A DNA stretch of 64,000 bases from Holdemania sp. Marseille-P2844 (GTDB taxonomy: Bacteria > Bacillota_I > Bacilli_A > Erysipelotrichales > Erysipelotrichaceae): contig NZ_LT635448.1 of NCBI RefSeq assembly GCF_900120005.1, forward strand, positions 62,001 through 126,000. Reading direction: 5' to 3'. The stretch's first letter is position 1. Each line of letters opens with the position of its first letter. A program made the translations under genes and the position numbers. This document shows, piece after piece, positions 41,237-42,679 of this stretch. The notes beneath the pieces were generated by a model that had not been told where the DNA came from, searched no databases, and was given only the letters and a program-made list of their open reading frames with translations.

Positions 41237-42679
41237 ATGAAACACGGATTTCCAGACGATTTTTTATGGGGCGGCGCGATTGCAGCCAATCAGGCAGAGG
41301 GGGCATGGCAGGAAGGCGGCAAAGGGCTGTCCGTACCCGACGTGGACTGGCACGATCCCCATTTAGTCCGCGGCGGCAAGCGCGATGCGGATTCAGAAAT
41401 GACCAGCACCCGGTTAAATGAATTATTAGCGATCAGGGAGGACTGGCAGTTCCCCAAGCGCAGCGGCATTGATTTTTATCACACCTACAAGGACGATCTG
41501 GCGCTGATGAAGCAGCTGGGACTGAAAGCCTTCCGCACCTCGATCAACTGGGCGCGGATCTATCCCAAAGGCGACGACGAGCAGCCCAACGAAGAAGGTC
41601 TGCAATTCTACGACGACCTGATCGACACGATTGTAGCCAATGGCATGGAGCCGATCATTACGCTGTTTCATTACGAACTGCCGTTAAAGCTGGTGACGGA
41701 ATACGGCGGGTGGCGCGATAAACGCCTGATCGACTTTTACGCCCGCTTTGCCCGGACTTGTTTTGAGCGCTATCGGGGAAAGGTGAAATATTGGATTCTG
41801 ATCAATCAGATCAACCTGATTTATGTCGAATCGTTTAATTCTCTGGGAATTCTGTGCGATCAGGTCGACAATCTGGAAGAAGCGAAATACCAGGCGATTC
41901 ACAATCAGTTTGTGGCCTGTTCGCTGGCGACCAGGCTGGGACGGGAGATCGATCCGGAATTCAAGCTCGGTATGATGATTTCCGATCATAACTGCTATCC
42001 GGAAACCGCGTCGCCGGAGGATGTGTTCAGCACCCTGCAGAAGAATCAGATGAGTCAGTTTTTCTATGGCGACGTGCGGATCCGCGGACAGTATCCGGGC
42101 TATGCGCTGCGGTATTTTGAGGATCATCAGCTGAACATCGTGATGACGCAGGAGGAACTGGATCTGATTCACAACTATACCGCCGACTATATGGCGTTCA
42201 GCTATTATTACTCGCGAATGAATTCAGCGGTTCACAACACGGCCGATCTGAACGATATCTCCCGCAACCCGCTGCTTCCGGCTTCGATTTGGGGCTGGTG
42301 CGTTGATCCGCTGGGTCTGCGCAATTCGCTCAACGTGTACTATGACCGCTACCAGCTGCCGCTGATGATTGCGGAAAACGGACTGGGAGCGCTGGATGAG
42401 CTGAAAGCAGGAACGGTTGAGGATGATTACCGGATTGATTATCTGCGTGAGCATCTTAAGGCGATCAAGGAAGCGATCCGCGACGGCGTCGAGGTGTTCG
42501 CTTACTGCGCATGGGGACCGATCGACATTGTCAGCTGCACGACCAATGAAATGTCCAAACGTTATGGGTTTGTGTATGTTGATCTGAACGACGACGGCAC
42601 AGGCAGCCGGAAACGGTTTAAGAAAAAGAGCTTTGACTGGTATAAGCGGGTGATTGAAACGAATGGAGCGGATCTCTAG
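41237..42679 (+). CDS. GH1 family 6-phospho-glycosidase with Gln at the acid/base position
   Basis: 480 residues, full length for GH1. N-terminal [25 protein letters not shown] and the C-terminal block [18 protein letters not shown]...[11 protein letters not shown] are typical of 6-phospho-beta-glucosidases that bind the sugar phosphate. The nucleophile Glu380 is present (IAENGLG). The acid/base motif, normally TFNE, reads ILINQIN: Gln191 replaces Glu. Plant myrosinases carry the same substitution, so activity on ordinary O-glycosides may be poor. It sits behind a lactose-family PTS. Start ATG 41237 has AGGAGG upstream. Confidence 0.9.

Follow-up and report, generated by a model that had tools for sequence, protein, structure and literature searches.

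What can a retaining glycosidase do when Gln stands in the place of its acid/base Glu? The question is raised by a GH1 gene in a 64,000-nucleotide stretch of DNA from Holdemania sp. Marseille-P2844 (hereafter ‘the window’, whose numbering is used unless another locus is named). A retaining glycosidase that has lost its acid/base can complete the first step only if the leaving group departs unprotonated, and its second step is slow without assistance from an anion or a cofactor; nature's example of such enzymes is the ‘QE-type’ myrosinases of plants. Proteins of the kind described here (‘Gln-type’, as against ‘Glu-type’ relatives that keep the acid/base residue) are annotated by pipelines as 6-phospho-beta-glucosidase or GH1 and paired with a cellobiose PTS; the acid/base Glu is missing from the entire clade.

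The gene and its active-site residues

The 480-codon open reading frame starts at an ATG (41237) with a GGAGGA ribosome-binding sequence ahead of it, and is closed by TAG at 42677-42679 (Table 1). Positions 41801-41815 read ATC AAT CAG ATC AAC, in which codon 190 is AAT (Asn190, 41804-41806) and codon 191 is CAG (Gln191, 41807-41809); the nucleophile, Glu380 (42374-42376), lies within the motif IAENG. In alignments with five 6-phospho-beta-glucosidases of solved structure (BglA-2, 4ipl; LpPbg1, 3qom; SmBgl, 3pn8; E. coli BglA, 2xhy; B. licheniformis, 6wgd), each about 43-50% identical to the window protein, Glu380 falls on the nucleophile and Gln191 on the acid/base Glu, such that the TxNE(P) signature of GH1 enzymes lacks its Glu. 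The exchange of Gln for Glu put forward by the original prediction can thus be read directly from the codon and is borne out by alignment to solved structures.

Using the residue roles described for LpPbg1 (PMC3605045), the -1 residues Gln19, His145, Asn190 and Trp426 match Gln22, His134, Asn179 and Trp423, whilst Thr435, Lys441 and Tyr443 of the phosphate loop occupy the places of Ser432, Lys438 and Tyr440; the nucleophile and the 6-phosphate site are intact, just as the original prediction had it. Cys434 stands at LpPbg1 position 431, where the phospho-glucosidase subfamily has no Trp.

The window protein matches Pfam Glyco_hydro_1 (PF00232) with E = 1.5e-119, and its top NCBIfam matches are all 6-phospho-beta-glucosidase subfamilies, each under its own cut-off (the highest score being 553 bits against a cut-off of 623, for NF007356). 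An AlphaFold model (pLDDT 93.4) has the usual fold, and a Foldseek search with it returned 6-phospho-beta-glucosidases as the nearest structures, with TM scores of 0.87-0.93 to GH1 phospho-glucosidases; no plant myrosinase appeared among the best structure or sequence matches. By profile and TIM-barrel fold the protein belongs to GH1, where we class it, like the plant QE-type myrosinases, as a variant.

Table 1. Positions of the genes and elements discussed in the text (window numbering unless a locus or genome is named).
Feature	Position	Strand	Evidence or remark
Gln-type GH1 6-phospho-beta-glycosidase, 480 aa	41237..42679	+	Pfam, structure alignment, AlphaFold
PTS lactose/cellobiose-family EIIA, 104 aa	40679..40993	+	Pfam PTS_IIA (PF02255), E = 1.4e-30
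PTS lactose/cellobiose-family EIIC, 451 aa	39300..40655	+	TIGR00410, 278 bits, above 236 cut-off
PTS lactose/cellobiose-family EIIB, 104 aa	38961..39275	+	Pfam PTS_IIB (PF02302), E = 1.5e-10; CxxGxSTS motif retained
Regulator, 632 aa	36881..38779	-	HTH_11, Mga HTH, two PRD, EIIA type 2 domain; divergently transcribed
Terminator-like 9-pair hairpin in the EIIA-GH1 gap, its T-rich tail weak	41003..41025	+	Count not above shuffles
YczE/YitT-like membrane protein	42654..43280	+	TTG start, overlaps GH1 end; membrane_YczE E = 7e-20, below cut-off
Cys-rich protein, 212 aa	36233..36871	-	No Pfam match; pattern C..CC..CxxC..CxxC
KDPG/KHG aldolase	33615..34586		Additional ~110-residue C-terminal part
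KDG-kinase-like gene, after the aldolase	34608..35630		Matches kinase half of aldolase/kinase fusion model NF041633
Other Gln-type GH1, own genome	G000:C15:443702-445132		IIB/IIC/IIA relatives adjoin
Other Gln-type GH1, own genome	G000:C13:108299-109720		IIB/IIC/IIA relatives adjoin
Other Gln-type GH1, own genome	G000:C11:127086-128501		IIB/IIC/IIA relatives adjoin
Very divergent Glu-type GH1	L033, 10085-11521	-	TINEQS, 40% identical; between EIIA and Gln-type GH1
Very divergent Glu-type GH1	L040, 6392-7867		TINEQS, 40% identical; between EIIA and Gln-type GH1
Second GH1-like ORF	L043, 6406-7842		Similar to those of L033 and L040
GH1 homologue	G009:C1:3117653-3119077		One in-frame TGA, frame otherwise open

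Fixation of Gln in a single clade

We compared 42 Gln-type with 38 Glu-type bacterial proteins by maximum likelihood, leaving the columns around the acid/base motif out of the tree. Gln is present in 42/42 members of one clade (branch support 100/100) and Glu in 38/38 of its sister set, and a single Glu/Gln change lies on the tree, as it does in all bootstrap trees. Among homologues from related genomes the eight best are all Gln and all lower-ranking ones Glu; these eight comprise the window gene, a 97% identical orthologue from another genome of the genus, and proteins of 57-50% identity from two families. In the orthologue comparison that had been set beforehand as the refuting test, all those in the same type of locus carry Gln.

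Among the 80 best loci from a scan of 84,980 species genomes, 26 more have Gln, L056 being identical with the locus L008/L037. Their sources include Lachnospiraceae, Bacillaceae, Listeria, Enterococcus, Vagococcus, Lactiplantibacillus, Gemmiger, Solobacterium, an Atopobiaceae MAG and Pelolinea (Chloroflexota); records from a plasmid collection (Niallia, Enterococcus gilvus, Listeria monocytogenes and Enterobacter ludwigii) are likewise all Gln. The clade as a whole ranges across Erysipelotrichales, Lachnospiraceae, Bacillaceae, Listeria, Enterococcaceae, Lactiplantibacillus, Atopobiaceae and Chloroflexota, and takes in a Tepidanaerobacteraceae MAG and an Enterobacter plasmid.

Comparison of the window gene with its 97% orthologue gives dN 0.016 and dS 0.259, a dN/dS of about 0.06, which indicates purifying selection on the gene. 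The canonical motif W-x-TFN-E is found in 81 of the 118 genomes of the order, and all 10 sites with W-x-TFN-Q in those 118 genomes lie outside GH1 genes, which rules out a scatter of Gln through canonical GH1s. From these three lines (clade-wide occurrence, selection, and the lack of W-x-TFN-Q in GH1 genes) we conclude that Gln is a fixed and selected trait of a single clade. A sequencing error, or the recent inactivating mutation of one strain that the original prediction had entertained as its alternative, would take just one base (GAG to CAG), but is vanishingly improbable given a Gln common to the orthologue and all 42 members, a single change on the tree and this dN/dS, which together also dispose of a pseudogene.

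The PTS operon and its neighbourhood

The lactose-family EIIA, EIIB and EIIC genes of the window are adjacent and intact, with their phospho-site motifs retained; the stretch VHAQDHLMT of EIIA holds the phospho-His of the family, and the closest solved relative of EIIC is the cellobiose-specific IIC 3qnq. This arrangement recurs, in that the usual Gln-type operon consists of an Mga/PRD regulator, EIIB, EIIC, EIIA and GH1. EIIC is linked at 27/33 Gln-type loci as against 4/54 Glu-type loci (Fisher p = 1e-12, a value that overstates independence, the loci being related), and the Mga/PRD regulator family at 24/33 as against 2/54, such that the proposed link to a lactose-family PTS holds in the window and well beyond it. 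Gln-type GH1 genes without a PTS do occur on intact contigs at four loci (L048, L051, L058 and L068; the Solobacterium/Gemmiger group and an Atopobiaceae MAG); two more Gln loci show no PTS operon (L035 and L044), but are cut by contig ends.

The genome of the window itself carries four Gln-type GH1 genes beside about 15 of the Glu-type, and the regulator adjoins two of the three Gln-type genes found elsewhere in it. At three loci (L033, L034 and L040) a second, Glu-type GH1 sits in the same operon as the Gln-type one. The stability of RNA structure ahead of the window GH1 is no greater than that of shuffles (z = 0.11).

Beyond regulator, IIB, IIC, IIA and GH1, no aglycone-processing gene recurs near Gln-type loci; what does recur is a YczE-like membrane protein, HAD phosphatases, a dedicated HPr and a Cys-rich protein. 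Relatives of the YczE/YitT-like protein adjoin Gln-type operons in L031, L032, L033, L040, L043 and L046, and we suggest, with a question mark, a part in aglycone export. Homologues of the 212-aa Cys-rich protein adjoin the operon in L031 and L073. An HPr-like gene (LGIHARPA motif) lies nearby in L041, L050, L052 and L060, and in L050/L052 adjoins an ORF of ~540 aa, the size of Enzyme I.

The active site beyond residue 191

Gln19, His145, Asn190, Glu380, Trp426, Lys441 and Tyr443 are found in 42/42 members of the Gln clade, and the same residues in the Glu-type group; position 435 is Ser/Thr in 37/42 Gln-type proteins. In LpPbg1 the corresponding residues form the -1 subsite and bind the phosphate (PMC3605045). 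The differences from the Glu-type proteins concentrate around the acid/base and on the aglycone side: Thr188 gives way to Val, Leu, Pro or Ile and Phe189 in most to Val, Ile or Cys; position 194 (Asn183 in LpPbg1) is Leu in 40/42; Cys246 is replaced by Met/Thr, Thr424 by Tyr/Cys/Leu, and position 434 becomes Cys/Ser. Position 274, whose LpPbg1 counterpart Arg267 contacts the +1 sugar, is Glu/Gln. Judged from these alignments, the clade has a rebuilt +1 subsite and an invariant -1 subsite.

Such changes invite the question of whether the role of proton donor has simply moved, leaving an ordinary 6-phospho-beta-O-glycosidase whose acid is one of two residues facing the aglycone, Glu198 or Glu274. 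Glu198 is present in 29/42 and Glu/Asp274 in 22/42 Gln-type proteins, both being rare in the Glu-type, and the LpPbg1 counterpart of position 274 touches the +1 sugar. Neither position is acidic clade-wide, however: the window protein has Gln274, and L004, L040 and L057 are without both. Within the mapped active site and close to it, we found no acidic residue that all 42 sequences have gained, and so no clade-wide replacement; an acidic residue at position 296, present in 41/42, is shared by half of the Glu-type rows. We regard a relocated proton donor as unlikely.

A model for catalysis

From the mechanism of retaining glycosidases that lack an acid/base we propose a PTS-fed phospho-glycosidase for activated glycosides. 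The dedicated EIIB/EIIC/EIIA would import a beta-glucoside and phosphorylate it at C6; Glu380 would then attack the anomeric carbon of the resulting 6-phospho-beta-glucoside, and the aglycone, of thio-, phenolic or acyl-type, would leave readily enough to need no protein acid. Gln191 would do no more than hydrogen-bond the substrate and the intermediate. Finally, water would hydrolyse the 6-phosphoglucosyl-enzyme without a general base, or with the assistance of a small anion, for which ascorbate in plant myrosinase offers a parallel, to give glucose-6-phosphate.

That the clade represents an ancient group of functional, ‘QE-type’ GH1 6-phospho-beta-glucosidases, for substrates whose aglycone departs without acid help, is the reading we favour and hold to be reasonably probable. 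In its favour we count a Gln common to the whole of one clade, the low dN/dS, the preserved -1 and phosphate sites, the changes gathered on the aglycone side, the phospho-glucosidase fold, the linkage to IIC and regulator, and the four Gln-type genes of this genome, all with PTS genes beside them; against it, the loci without a PTS and the want of a conserved aglycone-acting neighbour.

The model has a natural precedent in plants. The classical QE-type (TGG) myrosinases of plants are extracytosolic, act on unphosphorylated glucosinolates and use ascorbate as a cofactor. They share with the window protein their GH1 family, a Gln at the acid/base site and a Glu nucleophile (PMC6691170). The nearest relatives of the Gln clade are all bacterial Glu-type phospho-glucosidases (in a tree of bacterial sequences), and plant myrosinases show no close sequence kinship, being absent from the best matches, so that Gln probably arose independently in the two groups. 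The five solved 6-phospho-beta-glucosidases share fold, length, nucleophile, -1 subsite, phosphate-binding Lys/Tyr/Ser and a PTS context with the window protein, but have Glu as acid/base, a different +1 subsite (the equivalents of Asn183, Arg267 and Cys241) and mostly other PTS neighbours.

Which activated glycosides are cleaved is less certain. The original prediction offered a phospho-thioglucosidase or an enzyme for activated glycosides; the latter stands, as we infer, as the best-supported class, whereas the former does not follow from the residue, since Glu-type enzymes of bacteria and plants cleave thioglucosides too and Gln is thus not diagnostic. Plants also possess Glu-type (‘EE’) myrosinases (PMC6691170). 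Companilactobacillus farciminis (CfPttS/CfPbgS) and L. plantarum couple PTS uptake to GH1 6-phospho-glucosidases acting on thioglucosides (PMC8660893, PMC10360150): CfPbgS, reported to be 48-50% identical to E. coli BglA/AscB, degrades phospho-sinigrin (PMC8660893), and 8/11 L. plantarum GH1 enzymes are given as having 6-phospho-thioglucosidase activity (PMC10360150, citing earlier work), whilst L. plantarum enzymes retain the Glu in the -1 site (PMC3605045). Where the Gln-type operon has separate lactose-family subunits, CfPttS is a beta-glucoside PTS with IIABC fused. The clade, moreover, includes sediment and digester bacteria and reaches taxa for which crucifers are no obvious food source (Pelolinea, the Tepidanaerobacteraceae MAG), which makes a substrate confined to glucosinolates unlikely. 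Phospho-thioglucosides specifically are our leading candidate for the substrate, though on balance less likely than not.

Could the protein instead be a non-catalytic pseudo-glycosidase, one that binds the imported phospho-glycoside and acts, say, as sensor to the neighbouring PRD regulator or to the PTS? The same Glu to Gln change was made in the 6-phospho-glycosidase Gan1D (E170Q; PDB 4ze5, 4zfm) as a laboratory catalytic mutant for substrate trapping, crystallised with cellobiose-6-phosphate, and this we count against an active enzyme; the second GH1 genes of L033, L034 and L040, and the GH1-like ORF of L043, point the same way. Saying this, the natural clade keeps its Gln under selection, and the nucleophile and entire -1 site are invariant in 42 sequences; the Gln-type protein is the sole GH1 at most loci, where an imported sugar would stay uncut, and its divergence is enzyme-like, concentrated at the +1 site. 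A binding-only role is, in our view, rather unlikely.

A third possibility is a transglycosidase, in which the 6-phosphoglucosyl-enzyme hands its sugar to an anionic or thiol acceptor and not to water. Acid/base mutants of retaining glycosidases pass glycosyl groups to such acceptors in vitro, and the hydrophobic rebuilding around the acid/base would accord with this known chemistry. Gln-type loci hold no conserved acceptor candidate or downstream gene, however, and a dedicated PTS suggests catabolism, so that we think transfer distinctly unlikely. It is also conceivable, though improbable, that the clade forms a distinct class: a PTS-coupled glycosidase, or a glycosyl transferase-like enzyme, with no protein acid and with a cellular anion or thiol replacing the general base when the 6-phosphoglucosyl-enzyme is resolved; it would serve an entire unrecognised class of activated natural glycosides in bacteria of the gut, of soil and of sediment, with Listeria among them.

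A search of the open-access literature found no solved structure, assay or paper on a member of the Gln clade, which we describe as a widespread and seemingly uncharacterised subfamily of GH1 6-phospho-glycosidases with an apparently convergent myrosinase-type catalytic pair. Should the activated-glycoside model be true, a sugar-uptake operon that numerous bacteria of gut and soil share with L. monocytogenes would be misannotated and would feed on an overlooked class of substrate; the myrosinase-type active site would have evolved a second time, independently; and the clade would allow a direct test of the purpose of a retaining glycosidase without an acid/base.

The operon in Listeria monocytogenes

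In L. monocytogenes NCTC7974 the gene order is IIB-IIC-IIA-GH1-regulator and the GH1 has Gln. By operon order this locus fits lmo0914-lmo0918, whose subunit names are given in PMC7889195: the content (IIB, IIC, IIA, Gln-type GH1 and PRD regulator) is the same as that of the window operon. The Listeria locus is annotated as a beta-glucosidase/cellobiose PTS, and what we found on it consists of expression data. Expression of lmo0917, which operon order makes the Gln-type GH1 of Listeria, goes up in soil extract (PMC3179493), in line with a glycoside from plants or soil.
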